From positions 1 through 44,870 of the forward strand of contig JAQUYF010000009.1 of NCBI GenBank assembly GCA_028691975.1: a stretch of 44,870 nt of DNA, written 5' to 3'. The notes under the pieces were generated by a model that worked only from the letters and a program-made list of their open reading frames with translations, searched no databases and was not told where the DNA came from. Positions 2,120-44,870 of the stretch are shown in pieces. This DNA comes from Bacteroidales bacterium. GTDB lineage: Bacteria; Bacteroidota; Bacteroidia; Bacteroidales; UBA932. Numbering within the stretch: position 1 is the first letter of the stretch; each line of letters starts with the position of its first letter. The translations under genes and the position numbers were made by a program.

Positions 2120-2147
2120 TGCCAAAATTATATTGATACATAGAATT

Positions 2148-4766
2148 ATGACTTGCAAAGAGATCAGGCAAACTTTCCTGGATTATTTCGCTTCAAAAGG
2201 ACATACAATTGTCCCTTCCGCACCGATGGTTGTCAAAAACGACCCCACACTAATGTTTACAAATGCCGGTATGAACCAGTTTAAAGATTGGTTTTTGGGC
2301 AACACTCCAATTAAACACAGTCGTGTCGCGGATTCACAGAAATGCCTGAGAGTAAGTGGTAAGCACAACGATTTGGAAGAAGTCGGACATGATACTTACC
2401 ACCACACAATGTTTGAAATGCTCGGCAACTGGAGCTTCGGAGATTATTTCAAGAAAGAGGCTATCGGTTGGGCGTGGGAGCTATTGACCGAAGTTTACAA
2501 ATTGGACAGTAACCGACTGTATGCTACAGTATTTGAGGGATACGCCAAAGACGGCTTGGACTTGGATTCCGAGGCTAAAGATTATTGGCTTCAATACCTT
2601 CCCGCCGAAAGAATTATATTGGGCAACAAAAAAGATAATTTCTGGGAAATGGGCGATACCGGACCATGCGGACCGTGCAGTGAGATCCACATAGACCTCA
2701 GACCCGACTCTGAAAGAGCCAAATTACCTGGAAGAGATCTCGTTAACAAGAGCAATCCACTCGTAATCGAGATTTGGAACTTAGTCTTCATACAGTACAA
2801 CCGTAAAGCCAACGGAGAGTTGGAACCACTTCCTCTCAAGCATGTAGATACAGGTATGGGGCTTGAAAGACTGTGTATGGCTCTTCAGGGTAAATACAGC
2901 AATTATGATACGGATGTCTTCACCAACATGATCGGAGCTATCTCTAAATTGAGTGGCATTCCATATAAGACCGACAGTGAAGAGGGTATCGCAATGAGGG
3001 TCATTTCGGATCATATACGTGCAATCAGTTTCTCCATCACCGACGGGCAGCTTCCTTCAAATGTAAAGGCTGGCTATGTCATTCGCAGAATCCTGCGTCG
3101 GGCAGTAAGATATGGTTATACATTCCTCAACTTGCAGGAACCGTTCCTTTGCAAACTTGTACCTCAATTAGTTTCAGATATGGGAGATGCTTTCCCTGAA
3201 TTAAAAAAGCAGCAGCCGTTGATTGAAAAAGTGATAAAGGAAGAAGAAGAGGCATTCCTTCGCACTCTTGACAAGGGAATCCGCTTGATGGACAACATTA
3301 TGGAGAAGTCTAAAGAGACAAAAATTATCTCCGGAGAAGATGCATTTGTACTTTACGACACCTTTGGCTTTCCTATCGACCTGAGTGAGTTAATTGCAAA
3401 AGAACACGGCTATACAATCGATATGGCCGCATTTGAAATCGAACTGGGCAAACAGAAAGAGCGCGCCAGAAATGCAACCGCCATTGAAGCGGGAGACTGG
3501 AATGAGGTAAGACCTTTCACTGCCTGTATGTTTGTCGGCTATGACACTACTGAAGAGAATGTGCATATAATGAAATTCCGTACCGTTAAGGCTAAGAACA
3601 AAGAGATGTACCAGCTTGTCTTCGACAAGACACCTTTCTACGCAGAGAGCGGTGGACAAGTTGGAGACAGCGGAGTTATTGAGTCCGCTTCGGGAGAGAA
3701 GATTACTATCCTCAACACCATAAAGGAAAATAATCTTTTTATCCATATAGCAGAGCGAATCCCGACAGGAACGACAGATGAATTTCACGCATGCGTGGAC
3801 AAACAGAGAAGAGCCGATATCGCAAACAACCACTCTGCGACACATCTTCTACATTACGCTCTGAGACAGATACTTGGGACACATATTGAGCAGAAAGGCT
3901 CATTTGTTAATGCTTCGTACTTCAGATTTGACTTCTCTCATTACGAGAAGATTTCAAGCGAAGATCTGGAAAAAGTTGAAAAAATGGTCAACCGCCTGAT
4001 TCGCGAAAATGCCGTAAAGGAAGAATTTCGTAATGTGCCGATTGAAAAAGCGAGAGAGATGGGAGCAATGGCTCTGTTTGGAGAAAAATACGGTGATTCC
4101 GTGAGAGTTATCAAATTCGGCAAATCCATTGAACTTTGCGGAGGCACTCACACTCCTGCAACAGGATGTATCGGATATTTCAAGATTATCTACGAATCTG
4201 CAGTCGCAGCCGGCGTAAGAAGAATTGAAGCTACTACCGGTGCCCATGCAGAAGCAATTGTGGACAATATGAGGGATACTTTGGATGCCATCCGCAATCT
4301 GTTTGCCAACTCTCCGAATATTATCAGTAGCGTTTCCAAAATGATTGAAGACAACGAGTCTTTCCGTAAAACGATCGAAGAAGTTGCGAGAGAGAGAGCT
4401 GTAGCCTTAAAAAACAGCCTTATCGATGACAGCAAAATACTTAATGGAGTACGTGTAATCACAATGCGGGACGGTGCGTACACTGCGGATATCGTTAAAA
4501 ATATCGCATTTATGCTTTATAAAGAATTAACTAATTCGGTATTTGTTGCGGCTTTTCCAACTCTTGACGGTAAAGCATGCCTAGTCATGATGTACACTGA
4601 CGATTTGGTTAAAAACGGGGCCAATGCTGCCGCCGATATCAAGGCTGTTTCAGGTTTGATTCAGGGTGGCGGTGGCGGACAAAATTTTCTTGCGACTGCC
4701 GGTGGCAAGAATATTGATGGTCTTCCTGATGCAGCAGCCAAATTAATAGAACTTGCTACAAAGTAA
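2148..4766 (+). CDS. alaS: Alanyl-tRNA synthetase
   Basis: Charges tRNA-Ala with alanine in the cytoplasm. From the ATG at 2148 the protein has 872 residues, a normal full length, and begins [14 protein letters not shown] as in other AlaRS proteins; an ATG 15 bp upstream would add five unconserved residues. Domains in order are the class II catalytic core (about 1-245, with [13 protein letters not shown] and [12 protein letters not shown]), the tRNA-recognition helices, the editing domain with its zinc ligands H562/H566 (HSATH) and C664/H668 (CGGTH), and the C-terminal DHHA1/C-Ala domain with a glycine-rich GGGGGQNF motif. Editing residues look intact, so mischarged Ser- and Gly-tRNA-Ala should be cleared. 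Three bp separate it from the LptG-Fmt fusion, so the two are probably co-transcribed. Confidence 0.98.
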
Positions 4767-4769
4767 CGC

Positions 4770-7187
4770 ATGAAAAAGCTCGACAAACTTCTTATTTCCT
4801 CTTTTATAGGTCCATTTATTTTGACCTTCTTCATTGTCATTTTTGTTTTGGCCCTCCAGTTTTTATGGGTCTACATTGACGAACTTGTAGGAAAGGGCTT
4901 AGGTTTGGGAGTTATTTTTGAGTTTTTGGGGTGGGCATCGGCGACATTAACTCCGATGGCTCTTCCTCTTGCCACACTTCTGGCCTCAATCATGTCGCTT
5001 GGAAGTCTTGGCGAGAACAACGAGTTGCTTGCCATGAAAGCGGCCGGTATCTCACTGAAGAGAATATTCGTACCGCTGATCGGCGTCTCAGCCTTTATTG
5101 TAGTCGGAGCATTTTTCGCTTCCAACAATCTGATTCCAGTCGCATACAATAAGATTTACACTCTGAGGGAAGATATTATCAAGACCAAAGAGACTATCAA
5201 GATCCCTGTCGGCACATTTTACGACGGTATTGACGGCTATATCCTGAGGATTGAGCATCGCAATGACGAGACAGGCAAACTTTACAACCTGATTATCTAT
5301 GACCACTCAGGCAACAACGGCAACACCAATATGACGTTGGCTGATTCAGGGTTGATACATATTACGCCCGATGACAAGAATCTTATTTTTGACCTCTACC
5401 ACGGCTGCTCGTACGTAGAGTCCAACTTAATGACTTATCGCGATACATCCATTGAACTTCAGAGACTTAAATTCGACCAGCAGCAGTTAATCGTTCCTCT
5501 CGAAAACTACACATTTTCCCGCACGGACGATGACAGATTCAGCGATGAGGTAATGTCCAAAGATTTGCAGGCCCTAAGGCATGACAGGGACTCTCTGTCA
5601 ACAGTGTTCGACACCCTGAGAGGTCTTCAGTACAAAAGATTGGTTAGCGGTGCCGGACTTGAGTATCTCCATCAACTCGACACATCGAGAAATAAAGTAA
5701 TTAAGGGGAATATAAATCTTGACACTCTCTATGCAAATCTGGACACGGAGCATGAGCTTCAAGCATGCAGACAGGCTATCAACAGCGTCGCAATCGCCAC
5801 CGAACAGATTAATACTTACAAGAACGAAGATTGGAGATATATTGATCCTCTGCGCAGAATCGATATTGAGAGCTATCGCAAATTCACACTTTCCTTGGCC
5901 TGCCTGATTTTTTTCTTTATCGGAGCACCGCTTGGGGCCATTATCAGGAAGGGAGGACTTGGTACTCCGGTCATTATTTCGATTCTATTCTTTCTGATCT
6001 ACTACATAATCGATATGATTGGCAAGAAACTGGCGCGAGACGGTGCGGTTTCTCCTTTCACCGGAACTATAGTCTCATCACTCATTTTGCTCCCATTGGG
6101 AGTTTTCCTGACGTGGAAGTCCACTAAAGACTCCAATTTGTTTTCGATGGACTCATATACTCTGTTCTTTAAAAATGTCGGAAAGGGCGTGGTCAAAGGG
6201 TACAGGAGTGTTCGAAATGTCTTCAGAAGAAGAGGAGGAAGAGTGCGTATCGTATATATGGGAACGCCTGAATTTGCCGTAGGTCCACTCAGTATGCTGA
6301 TTGAAAACAAATATGAGATTGCAGCTGTAGTTACCGTACCTGACAAACCGAGCGGTAGAGGTCTGAAAGTCAATGAGTCGGATGTAAAGAAGTATGCAGT
6401 CAGTCAGAACATCCCCGTTATGCAGCCTGTCTCTCTGAAAGACCCGGAATTCCTTGCACAATTGAAGGCAATTGATGCAGACCTATTCATTGTAGTGGCA
6501 TTCAGAATGTTACCTAAAGAGGTATGGTCTATGCCACGCATGGGAACATTCAATCTTCATGCTTCTCTGCTGCCAAGATACAGGGGAGCGGCTCCTATCA
6601 ATTGGGCCATCATTAACGGAGAAAAAGTCACAGGTGTTACCACTTTTCTTATTGATGAACAGATTGATACCGGTAGGATACTGTTTCAGACACAATGCCC
6701 TATCGATAATTACGAGACCGCCGGTTCTCTTCACGACAAACTTATGGCTCTTGGCTCAGAGCTTGTTGTAAAAACTACCGAAGCCTTTGTTAATCACAAT
6801 GTTAAAAGTTATCTACAGGAAAATTTCGCAGCCGTTAAACCGGCGCCTAAGATTACCAGGGAGATTTGTCATATTGACTGGACCCAAAATGCACGAGATG
6901 TTGATGCTCTGATACGTGGTCTTAGCCCATACCCTGCTGCATATACATCCATTGTATCGGGAGAAGAAGTCTCAAATGTCAAAATATACGACTCATACGT
7001 CGTTGAAAGTATTGATAATGACCTTCCTGCCGGCACCATAACAACCGATGGAAAGACCTTCATTGAGGTCAAGTGCGGTTCGAGATCAATACGTATAGAG
7101 AATATTCAGGTAGCCGGTAAAAAGAGACTCTTCACCAAAGATTTCCTGCTTGGCTTCAGAGATCTTGAAAAATACAAATTTGTGTAA
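4770..7187 (+). CDS. lptG-fmt: LptF/LptG-family (YjgP/YjgQ) permease fused in frame to methionyl-tRNA formyltransferase
   Basis: One uninterrupted 805-codon frame. Residues 1 to about 455 are an LptF/LptG-type permease: membrane helices in about 10-120, a large periplasmic beta domain with inserted coil at about 130-365, and membrane helices at about 371-455. LptF/G proteins form the membrane part of the ABC machine that extracts LPS from the inner membrane. A basic cytosolic tail (about 456-490) leads straight into a complete Fmt from V492 (VRIVYMGTPEFAVGPL): the 10-formyl-THF-binding Rossmann domain with catalytic N595, H597 (FNLHASLLPRYRG) and D633 (IDTGRI), then the C-terminal OB-like domain. 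Fmt formylates initiator Met-tRNA. The Fmt part is 314 residues, the usual length of a free enzyme. Either a real fusion, or nested genes with Fmt starting at the internal GTG. It lies between alaS and the thiamine pyrophosphokinase gene, with 3-bp gaps on both sides. Confidence 0.93.
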   Translation: MKKLDKLLISSFIGPFILTFFIVIFVLALQFLWVYIDELVGKGLGLGVIFEFLGWASATLTPMALPLATLLASIMSLGSLGENNELLAMKAAGISLKRIFVPLIGVSAFIVVGAFFASNNLIPVAYNKIYTLREDIIKTKETIKIPVGTFYDGIDGYILRIEHRNDETGKLYNLIIYDHSGNNGNTNMTLADSGLIHITPDDKNLIFDLYHGCSYVESNLMTYRDTSIELQRLKFDQQQLIVPLENYTFSRTDDDRFSDEVMSKDLQALRHDRDSLSTVFDTLRGLQYKRLVSGAGLEYLHQLDTSRNKVIKGNINLDTLYANLDTEHELQACRQAINSVAIATEQINTYKNEDWRYIDPLRRIDIESYRKFTLSLACLIFFFIGAPLGAIIRKGGLGTPVIISILFFLIYYIIDMIGKKLARDGAVSPFTGTIVSSLILLPLGVFLTWKSTKDSNLFSMDSYTLFFKNVGKGVVKGYRSVRNVFRRRGGRVRIVYMGTPEFAVGPLSMLIENKYEIAAVVTVPDKPSGRGLKVNESDVKKYAVSQNIPVMQPVSLKDPEFLAQLKAIDADLFIVVAFRMLPKEVWSMPRMGTFNLHASLLPRYRGAAPINWAIINGEKVTGVTTFLIDEQIDTGRILFQTQCPIDNYETAGSLHDKLMALGSELVVKTTEAFVNHNVKSYLQENFAAVKPAPKITREICHIDWTQNARDVDALIRGLSPYPAAYTSIVSGEEVSNVKIYDSYVVESIDNDLPAGTITTDGKTFIEVKCGSRSIRIENIQVAGKKRLFTKDFLLGFRDLEKYKFV
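6233..6245 (+). promoter_or_regulatory. Internal AGGAGG plus GTG: candidate independent start of fmt inside the fusion
   Basis: AGGAGG (6233-6238) lies 4 bp before an in-frame GTG (6243-6245). Translation from this GTG would begin VRIVYMGTPEF, exactly where free Fmt proteins start. Shine-Dalgarno sequences are uncommon in Bacteroidota, and an Arg/Gly-rich stretch (RRRGGR) can produce AGGAGG by chance, so this is only suggestive of separate initiation. Confidence 0.4.
6243..7187 (+). CDS. fmt: Methionyl-tRNA formyltransferase as an alternative stand-alone product of the fusion frame
   Basis: If ribosomes start at the GTG at 6243 this gives a 314-residue Fmt of normal length with nothing missing: the N-terminal MGTPEF loop, N104/H106/D142 (numbered from the GTG) and the C-terminal tRNA-binding domain ending IQVAGKKRL...FRDLEKYKFV. 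It shares its frame with the upstream permease and there is no stop codon between them. The entry is listed so that both readings are recorded. Which products exist in the cell cannot be told from sequence. Confidence 0.5.
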   Translation: MRIVYMGTPEFAVGPLSMLIENKYEIAAVVTVPDKPSGRGLKVNESDVKKYAVSQNIPVMQPVSLKDPEFLAQLKAIDADLFIVVAFRMLPKEVWSMPRMGTFNLHASLLPRYRGAAPINWAIINGEKVTGVTTFLIDEQIDTGRILFQTQCPIDNYETAGSLHDKLMALGSELVVKTTEAFVNHNVKSYLQENFAAVKPAPKITREICHIDWTQNARDVDALIRGLSPYPAAYTSIVSGEEVSNVKIYDSYVVESIDNDLPAGTITTDGKTFIEVKCGSRSIRIENIQVAGKKRLFTKDFLLGFRDLEKYKFV

Positions 7188-7190
7188 CAA

Positions 7191-7820
7191 ATGAAAAGGA
7201 TCGTTATTTTAGCCAATGGAGACTTTCCATCCTCCACAGTAACGCTGGATTTGCTTCACGATGCGGACGTTATCATTTGCTGCGACGGTGCAGCCGAGCG
7301 GCTGTCCAAATATGGCATGGAGCCTAATTTTGTAGTTGGAGATATGGATTCCCTCTCCGAGAAATATAAGAAGAAGTACCAATCTCTCCTCTACAGTTCT
7401 GCAGATCAGGAAACCAATGATCTGACAAAGGCTTTTATACTTGCAAGGACACTGTCACCGGGCGAGATTCACATTTTAGGTGCAACCGGAAAGAGGGAAG
7501 ACCACACGCTTGGCAACGTCTCACTATTGCTGGATTACGCAAAATCCATCAATTGTCCTATCGATATCGTAACCGACTACGGCCGTTTTATGGCTATCTA
7601 TGATACCGCCACTCTTGATGTTCCTCTCGGCATCCAGATTTCTATCTTCGCCTTTGACGCTACGCTGAAAATAAAATCGGCAGGATTGAAATATCCTACC
7701 GATAATGTAATATTCGATTCGTTATGGAAGGCTTCCCTTAATGAAGCCTGCGAAACGAGTGTAACACTTACGCTATCACACCGTTGCGGCGTGTTGCTGT
7801 TTCTTGCGAACAGCCACTAA
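7191..7820 (+). CDS. Thiamine pyrophosphokinase
   Basis: A 209-residue cytoplasmic enzyme that transfers pyrophosphate from ATP to thiamine to give thiamine diphosphate. The family motifs are in order: ANGDFP (8-13), CCDGAAERL (30-38), VVGDMDS (48-54, acidic metal and substrate site), DQETNDLTKA (72-81) and the glycine-rich GATGKREDHTLGN (97-109). The C-terminal beta domain is present but short. It starts 3 bp after the Fmt stop and is probably the last gene of the alaS operon. Its last 45 bp overlap the 3' end of the convergent dehydrogenase gene, so both stop codons lie inside the other reading frame. Confidence 0.93.
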   Translation: MKRIVILANGDFPSSTVTLDLLHDADVIICCDGAAERLSKYGMEPNFVVGDMDSLSEKYKKKYQSLLYSSADQETNDLTKAFILARTLSPGEIHILGATGKREDHTLGNVSLLLDYAKSINCPIDIVTDYGRFMAIYDTATLDVPLGIQISIFAFDATLKIKSAGLKYPTDNVIFDSLWKASLNEACETSVTLTLSHRCGVLLFLANSH

Positions 7821-10650: not shown

Positions 10651-11904
10651 CTACTCGTTTTTGACGCCCATAAACAGTATTGCGCCGGTACTTGTCTCGC
10701 GTATTATGTAAATAAATGGACGGTCAAATGATATTTCTATCGTCTCCGTCGGTCCGAACGCCGAGTTGACCATTCCAATGTAAGTCGCCGCTGCCGCGGT
10801 AGTTCCCTCTTCGTCAACATTTATAACAGCTTTCTGGCGAGCTTCGCTGACACTCAAATCTCCGGTTGAAGTAATGGGACTGAAGTCCGCAAGTGCAGTA
10901 AAAGGCAGTTCCATGCCCATTTGCTTCAATACGGGGATTAGCATATCTTCCGTATCATACTCTGTCTTGAACTTTGGAAAGCTTAGACATACACTATGTC
11001 CCGTCTGCGATGCATAATATTCATTTAATCGATCTACTGTCAATCTATCTATAAAATCCGTCATCTTTGTACCTCGGGTAGGCATTATAACAAACATGTT
11101 ATAAGCGCCGTTGCCGTAAGGTATCGTGCAAAGAGCAGCTTCATCTGTAACCATCGAGGCAAATTCTGAGGTCTGATGCATAAAAGTCGTTTTGACTTTT
11201 GTGGCATCACTACAAATGAAATAATTGTCGGCATTATCGCTTTTGTTAAACTTATTAGCCCATATACCTTTGAAATATAATGCATTGACAAGTACCAAAA
11301 CGGAGTTCGGGTCCAAACTTGCCAAAAGAGAAGGAATCATATTGTCGGTCTTTGCGGCACACCATGAATTAATCTTAGGCAGCGTTGATTGAGAACAGAA
11401 GTCCACATTGTAAAGCTCTGCATCAAAAACATCTTTTATACTGCTTGTGTAAGAGTCTAAAATTGGCAAAACGTTGGATATCCACAAGGAGTTGGCACTC
11501 GATATGGTCGTTAATTTATCTGCTGAAAGCAGAGACGGCAAGATTAATTTATAATACTCATTGACATCCTGCATCGTAGAGTTGCCATATCCAAGTGCAG
11601 AAAGAATCTCACTGCGAGTCTCTCCCTGCGCACCGTTTGCAAGCATTGCAAAGCAGACAGAAGCACTTAGTGGAGAGACAAACACATTCTTATCTTCCTG
11701 CTTCTCACTCAAGGCTTTAAACAGATTGACGGCAAACGTATTACCGTTGTCCATAACAGCCTGCTGACTTTTGGTTAAAACGATATCTACACGTTGATTA
11801 TCCTCATTATCAGGAATATCCTCCTTATTACATGCAAGCGTCAAAAACGTACAAACTGCAACAGCAGCCAAGCCAAATAGCTTTGAAAAACAAATACTTT
11901 TCAT
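10651..11904 (-). CDS. Serpin family protease inhibitor, putative surface lipoprotein
   Basis: A 417-residue serpin. A lipoprotein signal peptide ends at C25 (FLTLAC), followed by NKEDIPD. An acidic K-(D/E)-(D/E) tag right after the lipid Cys resembles the lipoprotein export signal known from Bacteroidota, which suggests display on the cell surface. The serpin fold is full length, with VFVSPLSASVCFAMLANGA, the shutter segment and the C-terminal FDRPFIYIIRE. The reactive-centre loop hinge EEGTTAAAAT (365-374) has small residues as in inhibitory serpins, so it should trap proteases by loop insertion. Canonical spacing places P1-P1' at S381-A382, pointing to proteases that cut after small residues; this assignment could be off by one or two positions. 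A gene for another broad protease inhibitor lies upstream on the same strand. Confidence 0.94.
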   Translation of the reverse strand: MKSICFSKLFGLAAVAVCTFLTLACNKEDIPDNEDNQRVDIVLTKSQQAVMDNGNTFAVNLFKALSEKQEDKNVFVSPLSASVCFAMLANGAQGETRSEILSALGYGNSTMQDVNEYYKLILPSLLSADKLTTISSANSLWISNVLPILDSYTSSIKDVFDAELYNVDFCSQSTLPKINSWCAAKTDNMIPSLLASLDPNSVLVLVNALYFKGIWANKFNKSDNADNYFICSDATKVKTTFMHQTSEFASMVTDEAALCTIPYGNGAYNMFVIMPTRGTKMTDFIDRLTVDRLNEYYASQTGHSVCLSFPKFKTEYDTEDMLIPVLKQMGMELPFTALADFSPITSTGDLSVSEARQKAVINVDEEGTTAAAATYIGMVNSAFGPTETIEISFDRPFIYIIRETSTGAILFMGVKNE

Positions 11905-12411: not shown

Positions 12412-15400
12412 TTATTTTGTAACAATCTTCACGGATGCTGTGTGTCCGCGATATTCACGGGCATATAGAGATTCTATCTGAACAAGCGATGAGGTAAATG
12501 TACCGGCTTGAGTGACGTAGAAACGCTCTTCGATAGTTGTATATTCTTCCGGAAGCAACTCAAAATAATAATTAGTAGCAGACTCACGCACTTCTTTGTA
12601 ATAACGTCCCCACCAAGTATATCCGGAAGCCTCATTTTCAGGATAGAAACATGCAGGACGCATAGCACACATCTGCACGAAACTGCGGTTTTCAGTATTG
12701 TAAACCTTGTATCTGACAATAATTTTATCTCCGACAGAAAGAGCATCTCCATCGGCAATGGCTTTTCCGTCCGAAGCTCTCAGGAACTCACGTTGCACTG
12801 TAATCTCATTGCCACTCGCCTCAACTTTATCAAGCGTAGTGGTGTATGTATAATAAACAGCTCCGAGTTTCAAATCCTTCGCATTGCTCGAGATTAGAGC
12901 ATAAACAGCATCTGTCGTAGCCACGGTATTTTCCCATGCCTGGTTATGCTTCTGGAGAAGCAGCCACTGCGCCAAGCCATTAACCATTTTTCTCTCTCCA
13001 ATTCGGCCAAACAGATCAATGAGCTGCGCGTGAGCATAGATCTCGCTGTTCATCAAGCCACGCAGCGGCATCACTGCATTAGGGAAGTAGCACCCCACCG
13101 TATTGTTTTGCACCGCATAGTCTTTCAATGAGCGAGTCAGCTTGTCTACCCTCTCTGTAAATGATTTGTCCCAATACTCTTTGCCTTTGCAATTGAGTAA
13201 AGTTTCACAGAGCAAAGCCTTTGAAAGAATCGGGATATTTTGCCAACCGTCAACTGTCTTGCTTAAATATGATTTAAATGCTGCAGTGGCTCCATCCGAA
13301 AGAGCCACATCAAGATATTCGCTCCTTACGGCAAAATATTGAACCATATTGAACGATAGCTCTTTCGTCGTCGCAAGTCGATTGTCAATATAATGCAATG
13401 CATTGACAATCAATTTGTCTTCATCGGCAGTAAACTCAATAGCCCCGACAGAGCGAAGTTGATCCATCTTATCCAGGAAAAACAGTGTAATCATATCGGA
13501 AGAATTCATTCCCGAAAACCACTTAAATCCCCCGTCAGTATTTTGAAGAGTACGCATTTTGGCAACAGCCTCATCTCGGAATGCTTCTCTAATAGCCGCC
13601 TCCCCTGCAGGAGATGCATCCCCCAATACCTTGCCTCGCATCTGATTAATATAAAAGGCAGAGATCCATGCGATTGCATTGTCTGAAGAAGGCTTTTTTG
13701 CCATAGGCAGGGACTCTTTAACAGCCGAAAGTGTAGAATACTCTGCATATTCGATAATTGGATTGACTGCCCCGATACGCTGCTGAAGTTGCTTCTCATA
13801 ATATTTGCGACCATGCGAGCCTCCGAGTATAAACGAAGCAGCCTCGGTCAGAGTGATAAGGGCCGGTTCAACAATAATCTCATGCCTCTCACCGTCACTG
13901 ACACCATCTGCACTGTAAGTCATCTTCACGCCAAGCTTTTCGACAGCTGAAGGCACGGCAACAGACCATGCCACCTCGCCCTGTGCCTGAGCAGGGAGTG
14001 TTAATTTAATATCATCGCACCCGTCCAAAGAGATTGATTTCCCCGATACGGCATCATAAAACTCAATATGGGCAATCCCGTGTAGTTCACGCACCCCAAG
14101 ATTGACCACCTTACTTTTCAATGTAATCATGTCTCCCTCACGCACAAATAATGGGATATTAGGCACCATCATTGCCTCTTTCTGCACAATTAGCGATCTC
14201 TCCACCTGAGCACTTTTCAACTCTTGGTTATAGCCCATTATCAAAACCCGATAAGTAGACAGATTGTCATTTGTAGTAAAAGTGACTTCAGCCTTACCAT
14301 CCTCGCCCACACGGATATGCGGATAAAAGGCCAGCAGTTCCCCAAAATTGGAGCGCGGCACCACATCGACGGAAGTCTCTTCCTCCCCACCTGCGTCATC
14401 ATTATCCTGGACGGATTTTGCGGCAACCACTTCCTCTTTCAAAAGCATGTCATCTGCAGCAGATTCCTCTACTGCCACCCCCGGGACCATACCCATCAGA
14501 GAAGTATTCACGGAGTAGGCCCTGAACCGAGGTCCTCGCCAACTATACTGATTCAAAGTGGTGGTAATATCAGGTGAGTCGGTACGTATAACAGAGGACA
14601 AAGGCTGGAAATAGAACGAATTGGCATCAAATCTATCAGTTGTCACGTCAAAGATGGAGACCATCAACTCCGAAGCTGGTGCCTTTACCGTAAACCTTTC
14701 CTGAGACCTCGGAGTGGTCTTGTCCCTGAATGTCTCCACATCAATATCAAATCTGATATCATTGGGACGTATATAGTCATAGTGATGATTAATCTCCTTT
14801 CCGTTGCGGAATCCGAACAGAGACAAGACTACCATGCTCGGGTAGCTCTTCTCGTATGGAAGTACGATTTTTACCATCTCGTCACGCAAATGAACAGGCT
14901 GACGGTAAAGTCTGTGATCGGCATCAAACAACTCCAGTTCGAGATAAAGATCTTCTTCTGAGGTTCCTATGAGAAATTCAATGCCATCAACTGTCTTAAG
15001 CGGATAATAAAAATACTCCGACTCATACGGAACTTTAGTATCGCCCGGACTTAACAGCACAAATTTGCGTTTGGTTTCAATCTTCTTTCCTCTGTATTCT
15101 ATATTTGCGACAAACTCATATTCACCGGAGAGCAACGATTTGAAGTCAAAAGATATCGGAGAGTTGGACTTATAGCTACCGGCAGCACAATCTGTCTCAC
15201 CTCGCCTGATCACGTACGAACCATCCACATCAACAGGGAAGCCGCTGCGCGAAGATGCCGCTATCGCAAAATTGTCGGTAATATCCTTGTCTACAAGCAC
15301 TCGCCCCTGGTCGTCTATCTCATCATAATCATCCAATTCCCCATCCTCAATATCTTCAGCATCCATATCAAATGATATATTCAGGTCTATTGGCGTATCC

Positions 15401-17250
15401 GACACTATTACAGAGCTTCTAACCTCATGAGTTTCACCCTGAGGATCCGTAGCTTTGACAGTGATGCGATATGTAACAGTAATGTTACTTTTTGAAAGAT
15501 CCTCTCCGTTTTTAGATTTCGGCCTTTCAGCAACAAAATTTATTTCAAATCCGCCATCATTGTCTGAAAGTATCTTGCCGCTCATTCTTTTATCTTCAAA
15601 AGTGGTTGATCCCCACGGATAAACCCTTGCATAAGCCTGAATGTCATACTCAATTACAGCATTGGCCACTGAGAAGCCGGCATAACTTGTCACTTTGCCC
15701 TGCTGCTTTACAACATCCGTAAAGCAATAAACATCTTTAACGGGGATCATATTCACGGCAAATGTCGGACGCTTATAGGTCTCCACTCTGATAAACCGGG
15801 AGTTATAGCGCTTATCCGCCAGGATGTACGTCCCGTTACGACTCCCTTCCGGTATGGTAAAGAATCCGCTTGCCGAACCCATATCATTGGTCACTAACTT
15901 CACCGTAGCAATGGCCTCATTGGAAGATTCGTGCCTTAGCTTGATTTCTACAGATTTGTTTGGAACCACTTCTCCCCTTACTCCATCTGTTTTACAACAT
16001 ATTACCTTGAAGTAAACAGTGTCCGTCGGCTTGTAGAGCTCTCTGTCTGTATAGATTCTAACATAATCATTCATTGATTCTGACTTTCTGGACGAACCGG
16101 TACCATCTTTCAAATACATTAGTGGAGAGTATCTGTCAGAGCCATTTTCAACTCTAAATTTGTAACTGTTCTTATTGGCATCGGAAGGTATTGTCAACTT
16201 CTTTATCTTATTAAATCCGTCAGACTTGTAAGAAGTAGTTGAGAGTGCTCTCCAGGGCACAAATCCATTTTTAGAACTAACATCCCTGTCCCGGAATATG
16301 GAGACCCTCGGCTTCGCAAAAGGCTCACCGGTAGTGATATCGGCAGCATAAAATTCAGTCTCTCTTCTGACGGTACGCACACCTACTGCTACGCGACTGA
16401 CATTAATTGTAGTCACATTTTTGGCCTTTCCGGCATCAAAGTAGAGCAGATACACTCCTTCCCTCTCAAGATCAACCTTAATTCCCTGCTTCTCTGTAAT
16501 GTTATATTCATTTTTGAAGTCATCAAAGGTAAGAGAGGCGTATTTTTCGCCATACTTGGCAAAATCGGGCAGATTTTCTTCCAAATCCCCTGTTTGCGAA
16601 TATGTATAATTATCTTTAAGCCGGTAGATGTCGACTTTCAGCACCGATACATTTTTGCAGGAAACGATATACTCTATTCCCTTGCGGGGCATAGTCTGTC
16701 CATTGTCGGAAAAACTGAGAGTCTGCCCATCCATACCATCCACAACTCGTTGTATCTTCTGTGCATATTCCGTAGAGGCATATTTTTGTTTCAGAGCGAG
16801 AGCTTCCTCTCTAATTCCGAGATAATCGGCACCAAGAGGATTCAACTTGGAATCAACTTGTGACTTATGATTGATCAATCTTTTGTAAAGCAGCATGATC
16901 ACCCTCGGGTTGTCGGCATACTTCTCTATATTACTATCCAAATCCGCATAGATCTCATTGCGCAATGTGCTGAGTGTCGGATTAAATTGATTGGCTTCTT
17001 TCCAGTTATATTTTGTCAGAGCAGTGTAAATCTCCTCCGAAGCATAGAGTTGTTCGAGGATATTCCCATCCTGCTTTGCCTTCTGCTCGATCTCTTTGAG
17101 ATACTGTACTGCGGTCTGAGGCAAGCCGTCTTTGTTGGCTTGTTCGACCTTGCTCCACAATTGAGAATATGGGACAGGCTGAATATCTTGTGCCTTCATA
17201 ATATTAGAAAAGAAAATAATTAGGGTTAAGAGTAAAAATGTCTTTCTCAT
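12412..17250 (-). CDS. Alpha-2-macroglobulin family protein (thioester-less, bacterial)
   Basis: A 1612-residue secreted protein. A Sec signal peptide (residues 1-20, cut near MKA/QD) has no lipobox, so it is periplasmic or released. An alpha-helical N-terminal part (about 25-175) precedes macroglobulin-like beta domains. The MG2 signature is near residue 395 (YTDRELYKPTDTVYFK). A very acidic, low-complexity segment (about 930-962, ending EEETSVDVV) lies where the protease bait region is expected. The A2M domain follows (about 965: RSNFGELLAFYPHI, then TTNDNLSTYRV), and then an alpha/alpha-barrel-like domain (about 1150-1480). No Cys-x-Glu-Gln thioester motif is present. Bacterial A2M proteins trap proteases that cut the bait. 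A housekeeping envelope role cannot be excluded. The serpin gene lies downstream on the same strand. Confidence 0.9.
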   Translation of the reverse strand: MRKTFLLLTLIIFFSNIMKAQDIQPVPYSQLWSKVEQANKDGLPQTAVQYLKEIEQKAKQDGNILEQLYASEEIYTALTKYNWKEANQFNPTLSTLRNEIYADLDSNIEKYADNPRVIMLLYKRLINHKSQVDSKLNPLGADYLGIREEALALKQKYASTEYAQKIQRVVDGMDGQTLSFSDNGQTMPRKGIEYIVSCKNVSVLKVDIYRLKDNYTYSQTGDLEENLPDFAKYGEKYASLTFDDFKNEYNITEKQGIKVDLEREGVYLLYFDAGKAKNVTTINVSRVAVGVRTVRRETEFYAADITTGEPFAKPRVSIFRDRDVSSKNGFVPWRALSTTSYKSDGFNKIKKLTIPSDANKNSYKFRVENGSDRYSPLMYLKDGTGSSRKSESMNDYVRIYTDRELYKPTDTVYFKVICCKTDGVRGEVVPNKSVEIKLRHESSNEAIATVKLVTNDMGSASGFFTIPEGSRNGTYILADKRYNSRFIRVETYKRPTFAVNMIPVKDVYCFTDVVKQQGKVTSYAGFSVANAVIEYDIQAYARVYPWGSTTFEDKRMSGKILSDNDGGFEINFVAERPKSKNGEDLSKSNITVTYRITVKATDPQGETHEVRSSVIVSDTPIDLNISFDMDAEDIEDGELDDYDEIDDQGRVLVDKDITDNFAIAASSRSGFPVDVDGSYVIRRGETDCAAGSYKSNSPISFDFKSLLSGEYEFVANIEYRGKKIETKRKFVLLSPGDTKVPYESEYFYYPLKTVDGIEFLIGTSEEDLYLELELFDADHRLYRQPVHLRDEMVKIVLPYEKSYPSMVVLSLFGFRNGKEINHHYDYIRPNDIRFDIDVETFRDKTTPRSQERFTVKAPASELMVSIFDVTTDRFDANSFYFQPLSSVIRTDSPDITTTLNQYSWRGPRFRAYSVNTSLMGMVPGVAVEESAADDMLLKEEVVAAKSVQDNDDAGGEEETSVDVVPRSNFGELLAFYPHIRVGEDGKAEVTFTTNDNLSTYRVLIMGYNQELKSAQVERSLIVQKEAMMVPNIPLFVREGDMITLKSKVVNLGVRELHGIAHIEFYDAVSGKSISLDGCDDIKLTLPAQAQGEVAWSVAVPSAVEKLGVKMTYSADGVSDGERHEIIVEPALITLTEAASFILGGSHGRKYYEKQLQQRIGAVNPIIEYAEYSTLSAVKESLPMAKKPSSDNAIAWISAFYINQMRGKVLGDASPAGEAAIREAFRDEAVAKMRTLQNTDGGFKWFSGMNSSDMITLFFLDKMDQLRSVGAIEFTADEDKLIVNALHYIDNRLATTKELSFNMVQYFAVRSEYLDVALSDGATAAFKSYLSKTVDGWQNIPILSKALLCETLLNCKGKEYWDKSFTERVDKLTRSLKDYAVQNNTVGCYFPNAVMPLRGLMNSEIYAHAQLIDLFGRIGERKMVNGLAQWLLLQKHNQAWENTVATTDAVYALISSNAKDLKLGAVYYTYTTTLDKVEASGNEITVQREFLRASDGKAIADGDALSVGDKIIVRYKVYNTENRSFVQMCAMRPACFYPENEASGYTWWGRYYKEVRESATNYYFELLPEEYTTIEERFYVTQAGTFTSSLVQIESLYAREYRGHTASVKIVTK

Positions 17251-20593: not shown

Positions 20594-21694
20594 ATGAATA
20601 AATTCAGCGTCAAAATACTGGACAAGTATATCATCAAGAAGTTTATTACAACATACTTCTTTGCCCTGTTGATTGTAATCGGCATCGTCATCGTTTTTGA
20701 CATTAGTGAAAAGATTGATAATTTCGTAAATAACAATATCCCTCTTAAAGAGATCATCGTACAATATTACTTGAACTTTATCCCATGGATACTGAACAGT
20801 TTCAGCCCTCTGTTTGTTTTCATATCGGTTATCTTCTTCACGTCAAAACTTGCAGCCAACAGTGAGATTATCGCTATGCTTTCGGGAGGTGTCAGCTTCA
20901 ACAGGATGCTTAGACCGTATATGGTTTCTGCCGCATTCATTGCTGCAATGTCCATGGTGTTGAGTTTGTGGATCATTCCTCCCGCCAACCAGCATCGACT
21001 TGACTTTGAAAACAAATATGTCAAAAAACAGGCTGTAGTCGGTGGCGATTATGCGCGAAACATTCACTACCAAATTGCTCCGGGTGAGTTTGTATATGTC
21101 GAATCGTTCAGTTCATGGGCAAATACTGCATATCGTTTTACTCTGGAGACCATCAAGGATAATAAAGTCGTATCCAAACTTTCTGCCGAATCTGCCCAGT
21201 GGGATTCCACTTTGCTTGGATGGAAACTCAAGAATTACTATATCAGAGACTTCCATGGAGAGTCTGAGATTGTCACCACAGGCAAAAGCATGGACACGGT
21301 AATCAGCCTTACCATTGAAGACTTTTACAGACGTAAAAATATCGTAGAGTCTTTGTCTATCGGCGAACTGAATGACCTTATCAAAGTACAGCGAATGCGT
21401 GGCGACAAGATGATTATACACTCTCAAATAGAGAAGAACAACCGCATCGCAATGCCTTTTTCCGCCTTTATCCTTACCATTATGGGAGTTGCTCTCGCTT
21501 CCCGCAAAAAGAGGGGCGGTATCGGGCTCAATATCGGTATCGGCATAGCCCTGAGTTTCATCTATATATTATTTATGCGCTTTAGCGAAATGTTTGTCTT
21601 TACGGGGACTCTCTCCCCTGCACTCGCACTGTGGATGCCAAATATCGTATTTTCGGTAATTGCCGCCCTCCTTTACAGAATGACACCAAAATAA
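20594..21694 (+). CDS. LptF/LptG-family (YjgP/YjgQ) permease
   Basis: A 366-residue inner-membrane protein with the LptF/G layout: three N-terminal helices (about 14-120, including LKEIIVQYYLNFIPWIL and LAANSEIIAMLSGGVSF), a periplasmic beta-jellyroll (about 130-265), and three C-terminal helices starting near IAMPFSAFILTIMGVALASRKKRGG. LptF and LptG together with LptB2 lift LPS out of the inner membrane. This protein is of standard length, unlike the fused homologue in this window, and the two could be the heterodimer partners. It sits 3 bp after tgt and 21 bp before the MFS gene. Which of the pair corresponds to LptF and which to LptG cannot be assigned by eye. Confidence 0.93.
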   Translation: MNKFSVKILDKYIIKKFITTYFFALLIVIGIVIVFDISEKIDNFVNNNIPLKEIIVQYYLNFIPWILNSFSPLFVFISVIFFTSKLAANSEIIAMLSGGVSFNRMLRPYMVSAAFIAAMSMVLSLWIIPPANQHRLDFENKYVKKQAVVGGDYARNIHYQIAPGEFVYVESFSSWANTAYRFTLETIKDNKVVSKLSAESAQWDSTLLGWKLKNYYIRDFHGESEIVTTGKSMDTVISLTIEDFYRRKNIVESLSIGELNDLIKVQRMRGDKMIIHSQIEKNNRIAMPFSAFILTIMGVALASRKKRGGIGLNIGIGIALSFIYILFMRFSEMFVFTGTLSPALALWMPNIVFSVIAALLYRMTPK

Positions 21695-43848: not shown

Positions 43849-44412
43849 ATGAATCGTATAGCAATATTTGCCTCCGGCTCCGGAACCAATGCAGAGAATA
43901 TCATTAATTACTTTAGTAAAGATCTGAATATCAGCGTTGTATTGTTATTGTGCAACAATCCTGATGCCGGTGTCATAGTGCGTGCAAAAAGGCTTGGAGT
44001 ACCATTCAGGCTATTCTCAAAGGGTGAATTTGACGAAATTCACGCTCTCCTCCGGGAGCTCAAAGTTGACTACCTGATTCTTGCCGGCTTTTTACTAAAA
44101 GTCCCTGACAACTTGGTTGCATCCTACTCAGGCCGTATCATCAATATTCACCCGGCACTGCTCCCAAAATATGGAGGGAAAGGCATGTACGGAATGAATG
44201 TCCACAATGCTGTAATAGCCGCAAAGGAGAAAGAATCCGGGATTACGATACATATCGTAGACAACATGTACGATCACGGCACAACTCTGTTTCAGGCGAA
44301 ATGTCCGATTGAAGCGCACGATACCCCGGAAGACCTTGCGGCAAAGATACACATCCTCGAACAAGCCAATTTTCCTCGTGTCATCAAAGAATATATCAGC
44401 AGTCGATTATGA
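43849..44412 (+). CDS. purN: Phosphoribosylglycinamide formyltransferase
   Basis: A 187-residue cytoplasmic enzyme that formylates GAR with 10-formyl-THF in purine synthesis. It starts MNRIAIFASGSGTNAENII, and the catalytic N99, H101 (INIHPALLPKYGG) and D142 (YDHGTT) are present. Length is normal for a stand-alone PurN. The gene is complete, but its last 17 bp overlap the stop end of the convergent RHS fragment. Confidence 0.97.
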   Translation: MNRIAIFASGSGTNAENIINYFSKDLNISVVLLLCNNPDAGVIVRAKRLGVPFRLFSKGEFDEIHALLRELKVDYLILAGFLLKVPDNLVASYSGRIINIHPALLPKYGGKGMYGMNVHNAVIAAKEKESGITIHIVDNMYDHGTTLFQAKCPIEAHDTPEDLAAKIHILEQANFPRVIKEYISSRL

Positions 44413-44870
44413 TCCCGCTCTCGTTGGTCAGCCGGCCTTCAGGTGTCAGTATGTAATCTATTGTTCCATCTGCATGATAGACCATATCGCCACTGTAGTA
44501 GTTCTGCACAGTGCCGTTGAGCTTTGTTGCCAACTTATTACCGCCTGCATCATAGATGTACGTCAGCACATCACTGCCTTTGGTGATGGTATATGGCATC
44601 TCGATTGGGTTGTAAGTTATCGTCATGCCCCTGATTCCGTCCATAGTCACATTGCCTGCCGCATCGTATGCATAGCTCTTCGTACTTCCCGATACCGATA
44701 TGCTGCTCAGTCGTTTGGTGCTTGCGTTGTAGCTGTAACTTAGGCTCTCCGCTCTATCTCCTCCTCTTACCAGCGTCAATATATTGCCTATTGCATCGTA
44801 TGTTATGCCGCTCTCACTGTTGCTGCCGCTGTGTGTACCTGATGTCAGTCGATTATAGATATCGTAGCTG
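44396..44870 (-). pseudogene. RHS/YD-repeat protein, 3' part, probably truncated at purN and open at the window edge
   Basis: The frame is open from the window edge (44870) to a TGA at 44396-44398 and encodes about 157 residues. They carry YD-repeat units: YDIYNRLTSG, ITYDAIGNILTLVRG, YAYDAAGNVTMDGIRG and YIYDAGGNKLA, then YYSGDMVYHADGTIDYILTP and EGRLTNESG. In intact Bacteroidota RHS proteins this last segment is normally followed by a KDHLGNxR core motif and a variable, often toxic, tip. Here both are missing: after NESG come only five residues (IIIDC), read from the antisense of the purN end. So the 3' end was most likely lost by recombination. No ATG is needed inside the window; the gene starts outside it. 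Confidence 0.75.

Follow-up and report, generated by a model that had tools for sequence, protein, structure and literature searches.

An LptF-like permease fused in frame to methionyl-tRNA formyltransferase in the Bacteroidales family UBA932

In the DNA analysed here, a 44,870-nucleotide stretch of a Bacteroidales genome (the window), an LptF-like permease and methionyl-tRNA formyltransferase (Fmt) share one open reading frame, and the fusion is confirmed as real and in frame. We consider it likely that this one gene encodes one obligatory 805-residue LptF–Fmt protein of the inner membrane, which is probably bifunctional and carries the only Fmt visible to our searches. The relevant features of the window are as follows.

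4770–7187, plus strand: fused ORF of an LptF-like permease and Fmt; 805 amino acids, ATG start, uninterrupted.
4770–6158, plus strand: permease half, residues 1–463, from Pfam, NCBIfam and hydropathy.
6159–6248, plus strand: basic linker, residues 464–493, from charge and from dN/dS in fused relatives.
6233–6245, plus strand: AGGAGG (6233–6238) and a GTG codon (6243–6245, Val492), a proposed nested start that we judge to be a by-product of Arg, Gly and Val codons.
6249–7184, plus strand: Fmt half, residues 494–805, with the presumed catalytic residues N595, H597 and D633 and the presumed tRNA-loop residue R530.
2133–4766, plus strand: alaS, 3 nt 5′ of the fusion.
7191–7820, plus strand: thiamine pyrophosphokinase gene, beginning 3 nt past the stop codon of the fusion.
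20594–21694, plus strand: separate LptG-like permease gene, 366 amino acids, presumably partnering the fused subunit.

The original prediction described an LptF/G-type permease that reads without a stop codon into a complete Fmt, and the uninterrupted ORF, with the expected Pfam and TIGR00460 domains, agrees with that description. LptF_LptG (PF03739) covers residues 7–450 with 229.9 bits against a cut-off of 27.9, and the match extends over positions 2–353 of the 353 in the profile. Formyl_trans_N follows at residues 493–669 (130.4 bits) and Formyl_trans_C at residues 694–796 (74.0 bits), both in Pfam. The Fmt half clears the equivalog cut-off of the NCBIfam fmt model TIGR00460 (246 versus 201.5 bits). 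The permease half scores 143 bits with the NCBIfam LptF model TIGR04407, below its equivalog cut-off of 230, and 100.5 bits with the LptG model (cut-off 240); judged by these scores, it is LptF-like rather than LptF proper, and is closer to LptF than to LptG. Its hydropathy peaks lie at residues 16–34, 63–81, 99–117, 374–392, 400–418 and 430–448, and a loop of ∼250 residues separates the third peak from the fourth, as in LptF/LptG. From the topology of LptF/LptG, we assume that this three-loop-three helix layout leaves both termini in the cytosol.

In the proposed arrangement, the N-terminal half would serve as the LptF-type subunit of the LptB2FG lipopolysaccharide exporter. Past the sixth membrane helix, the chain would enter the cytosol, continue as the basic linker and end as an Fmt hanging in the cytosol, which would formylate Met-tRNAi from its membrane anchor; the permease and Fmt activities would not need to communicate. 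We infer a stable, working full-length chain with both halves active and a location in the membrane. A membrane-tethered Fmt is the natural reading, since the fusion is genuine and in frame, its Fmt is intact and the arrangement is conserved across several genera. The partners of an LptB2FG exporter are also encoded, as the genome of the window carries genes for an LptG-like permease and an LptB ATPase elsewhere. The LptG-like gene at 20594–21694 scores 181.6 bits with the LptG model (cut-off 240) versus 124.6 bits with the LptF model, both below the cut-off, and 23 of 25 genomes contain an LptB match above the cut-off, that of the window (G000) included and G007 and G015 excepted.

To place the fusion among its relatives, we compared the window with genomes of the genus, family, order and phylum. 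The fusion belongs to gut bacteria that are known mostly through metagenomes. The genus of the window matches Ca. Cacconaster of the family UBA932, Bacteroidales; a passage in PMC8957277 introduces Cacconaster as a new name for the GTDB genus Bact-11 of this family. The same stop-free frame is found in 22 of the 24 other genomes from the genus at 59–65% identity, and the two exceptions are G009 (65% complete), without a match, and G012 (51% complete), with a weak permease match only. The closest relative found (G129, the same as L033) is 69% identical. In the family, a stop-free frame from the permease through to Fmt occurs in at least 110 of the 249 sampled genomes, the window included, as counted from the matches listed, and some of these loci are truncated by the end of a contig beyond the junction. 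By genus code, the fused state is seen in 30 of 31 genomes of g1, 25 of 26 of g31, 30 of 30 of g38, 18 of 19 of g22 and 3 of 3 of g32, and among the small genera in the single genomes of g19 (1/1) and g21 (1/1) and in one genome each of g18 (1/3) and g39 (1/3); the last two hold both fused and split states. The misses in g1, g31 and g22 (G259, G244 and G229) gave no match at E ≤ 1e-60. For G259, which is of the same genus as the window and 93% complete, the search detected neither half at E ≤ 1e-30, probably because of an assembly gap. All 80 named loci are fused and keep the order alaS, permease, Fmt, in a set that was chosen by similarity to the fused query; the records come from many projects, are identifiable from title or source name as metagenome-assembled genomes, and include Ca. 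Cacconaster caballi (L049) and Ca. Cryptobacteroides sp. (L120).

These comparisons bear on the simplest alternative, that a sequencing or assembly error joined two genes. Split pairs do exist in other genera of the family, which would be compatible with such an error, but the conserved stop-free junction in the genus and the wider family rules it out, and the uniformly fused named loci, although selected for similarity, also speak against it. We therefore give this alternative practically no chance; conservation refutes it for the main groups, and the single-genome cases G041 and G097 are weaker. The original prediction had looked to related genomes for the same two-domain architecture, and would have yielded to close relatives with separate genes together with a sequencing error at the junction. 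The two-domain ORF recurs across several genera, all same-genus genomes in the sample with a usable match are fused, and the split pairs belong to other genera.

Outside the family, no fused ORF was listed at E ≤ 1e-110 among 393 genomes of the order, of which six belong to UBA932 and 324 lack any match at this threshold. Likewise, no fusion was found at E ≤ 1e-110 across the phylum in 395 genomes, where the sole match is the window's own genome. At this threshold the adjacent gene pair of G038, which is 40% identical, scored 4.8e-165, so a fusion resembling that pair would be listed, and a very divergent fusion could be missed. A search of the open-access PMC subset found no paper on an LptF–Fmt fusion.

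The original prediction also raised the alternative that Fmt is translated mainly from a nested start at GTG 6243, the permease frame having merely lost its stop codon. The GTG and the AGGAGG 4 nt upstream of it are present in the window, and start codons can be found near Fmt in other fused loci. Among 128 distinct fused junctions, an ATG, GTG or TTG precedes the first Fmt strand within three codons in 10, within six codons in 29 and within ten codons in 58. The last value (45.3%) nevertheless equals the chance level, as 43.1% of the ten-codon windows elsewhere in the same ORFs contain such a codon, and ATG alone behaves in the same way (30/128 or 23.4% versus 25.0% elsewhere). Start codons before Fmt in the fused loci are thus at chance frequency, and the conserved internal start codon of a nested gene is not seen. 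All 36 split loci examined have a start within 16 codons of Fmt. The residue at the position of the window GTG is most commonly Thr (56 of the 128 loci) or Ile (37), with Val in 15 and others in 20; the Val codons are GTG in 10 loci, GTA in three and GTC in two, and the closest relative, G129, keeps Val with the codon GTA. PMC9976891 states that Bacteroidia ribosomes fail to recognize Shine–Dalgarno sequences and singles out rpsU, with its very strong Shine–Dalgarno pairing, as a special case; part of PMC6847099 describes the mRNAs of the phylum as being without these sequences. The AGGAGG is therefore most plausibly a stretch of Arg and Gly codons. The motif and the GTG of the original prediction thus stand, and the nested start is not supported: it was rejected as the main route on the chance-level starts and the spread of residues at the GTG position, and the junction evolves as coding sequence. 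We regard Fmt production mainly from an internal start as very unlikely.

An ATG lies within six codons of Fmt in 13 of the 128 fused loci and eight codons upstream in 16, mostly in loci with a Cryptobacteroides-type linker as judged by eye. The 30 ATGs within ten codons show A at −6 in 70% and at −3 in 43% with 32% GC upstream, and the Fmt starts of the split loci show 58%, 53% and 33%, respectively. An extra short Fmt form in these loci is possible, since their ATGs sit in an A-rich context like that of the split Fmt starts.

The linker itself shows the signature of a protein segment. Across 33 non-overlapping nearest pairs among the fused loci, the dN/dS value is 0.22 for the permease and 0.15 for Fmt, and reaches 0.26 both for the linker (0.17–0.36) and for the final ten codons before Fmt (0.13–0.41). 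The junction therefore evolves as protein and is constrained. The stretch from residue 450 to Fmt is basic in all 128 fused loci, with a net charge of +3 to +11, and the linker length, although ranging from 31 to 46 residues, is clustered at 32 (66 of 128) and 43 (41 of 128) with all clades pooled. The main rival to the full-length chain is that a protease cuts the single chain within this linker, which would release a separate LptF and a soluble Fmt and reduce the fusion to an expression device. A basic segment of this length between two separate domains would suit such a cut, but its clustered length and constrained sequence point the other way; neither feature excludes cleavage, and we consider it unlikely.

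In the full-length protein, the Fmt half is complete and under constraint. The original prediction listed N595, H597 and D633 as intact active-site residues; they are present, the numbering is correct and the alignment columns are invariant. These residues, which we take from general knowledge to be the catalytic Asn-His-Asp, and G529-R530-G531, presumably the Gly-Arg-Gly N-terminal tRNA-binding loop, are identical in all 128 fused and all 36 split loci. In the SLLP-type loop of the fused loci, L601 and P602 occur in all 128, and L600 is kept in 120 and replaced by Ile in eight. In the window genome, which is 87% complete, no other Fmt match was found at E ≤ 0.001 except one PurN-like match at 43849–44412 (142.2 bits, just below the PurN cut-off of 150.1); this sole candidate for a second Fmt was rejected. 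Extra formyltransferase-region matches in the same-genus fused genomes are partial and weak (E 8.6e-9 or weaker). The fused family genomes give one match at E ≤ 1e-60, except for G255, G208, G213 and G249 with two. In G255, the second match is the remainder of Fmt where a new contig begins; in the other three, it likely reflects a broken contig, the first match being incomplete.

A search for peptide deformylase matched 23 of 25 genomes, the window genome included, and missed G004 (78% complete) and G008 (60% complete). The presence of this enzyme in the window genome fits a working formylation cycle, in which Met-tRNAi is predicted to be formylated. The formylation and export systems are both present, since deformylase and LptB were found, and the fused protein is the one visible source of Fmt. 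Against this background, the idea that the Fmt half is a decayed passenger, with formylation left to another enzyme or to none, has a negligible chance of being correct, given the low dN/dS of the Fmt half, the invariant active site, the lack of any other Fmt in the searches and the deformylase; nothing turned up in its favour.

To analyse the origin of the fusion, we compared the fused loci with 36 split loci, 35 from the family and one (G038) from another family, which were picked to cover genera and are uninformative on frequency. Of these, 34 are pairs that abut or overlap, with the closest likely start of Fmt placed anywhere from 31 nt upstream to 24 nt downstream of the last base of the LptF stop codon; G038, outside the family, has a gap of 24 nt between the two genes. 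In G046 and G047 (L151 and L152), ∼1.2 kb lies between the permease and Fmt genes. These two are early-branching genomes of the family, and their gap may be nearer the older arrangement. In G048, G068, G059, G077 and G064 (genera g25, g35 and g40), which are not among the 36, the two genes matched on different contigs, so that these genomes show no closely spaced pair. In L156 (G083) of g18, the LptF gene matched in two frames with a separate Fmt downstream, reflecting a genuine break in LptF or else a frameshift introduced by assembly.

In a 69-row tree built from LptF and Fmt, no fewer than four changes are required to account for the fused state, and well-supported branches force three of them. 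Constraining the fused rows other than G097 (32 of 33) to one clade lowers the log-likelihood by 68, with an AU p value of 0.0012; a single origin of the fusion is thus rejected on this tree with G097 left out and G041 kept in. The fusions of G097 and G041 rest on one metagenome-assembled genome each, and the outgroup G038 is a long branch. The LptF and Fmt genes seem to have fused repeatedly, since at least four changes are needed and the one-clade constraint is rejected; on formal grounds, a single gain with several later fissions could also account for the pattern. Each fusion would arise by loss of the LptF stop codon between abutting or overlapping genes, and the Fmt start would be lost afterwards, apparently in that order.

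We compared the fused protein with known systems. Like Fmt (1FMT/2FMT, TIGR00460), the C-terminal half is a full-length two-domain enzyme that keeps the catalytic Asn-His-Asp and the tRNA-loop Arg. However, the six matched Fmt chains in the PDB are free proteins of 308–322 residues or nearly so (314–322), whereas this Fmt makes up the C-terminal portion of a membrane protein with six helices and, unlike free Fmt, usually lacks its own start. Like LptF/LptG of LptB2FG (8FRL, 5X5Y chain G), the permease half covers the whole LptF_LptG profile, with three helices, a large loop and three helices; in contrast to the LptG chains in the PDB (355–358 residues), it is ∼100 residues longer and has an enzyme attached at its C-terminus. 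Two PDB matches, ArnA and linear gramicidin synthase subunit A, also join a formyltransferase-fold domain to a different domain. In both of these, the fusion partner acts in the same pathway, and we know of no pathway shared by an LptF-type permease and Fmt.

The usual picture of Fmt is of a soluble housekeeping enzyme. Across a broad lineage from the gut, the only Fmt visible to searches is attached to a subunit of an envelope transporter, and this attachment seems to have arisen more than once. Translation initiation may tolerate a membrane-anchored Fmt at the stoichiometry of the exporter; otherwise, envelope export and initiation would be linked in some unsuspected way. The recurrent fusion could be adaptive, with Fmt moved to the lipopolysaccharide exporter of the inner membrane several times in evolution so that envelope assembly is tied to how much Fmt there is, where it sits or how active it is; we consider this bold idea doubtful. 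Its sole support here is the repeated origin, and easy stop-codon loss between overlapping co-directional genes explains the repetition as well. Were it true, formylated initiation might, for example, be favoured near the membrane, or export might be adjusted to translation capacity.

Several neighbouring genes of the window were assigned by eye. Two tandem M23-type peptidase genes at 113–2070 on the minus strand are divergent from alaS, and 45 of the 80 named loci have at least one such gene next to alaS in divergent orientation. Downstream of the fusion, the thiamine pyrophosphokinase gene (plus strand) and a nucleotide-sugar epimerase-like gene (minus strand) overlap convergently by 45 bp at 7776–7820. 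A 417-residue protein encoded at 10651–11904 on the minus strand resembles a secreted serpin (a protease inhibitor), and near it a 1612-residue α-2-macroglobulin-like protein is encoded at 12412–17250, also on the minus strand. Finally, an open-ended frame with YD/RHS-like repeats occupies 44396–44869 on the minus strand at the contig end.
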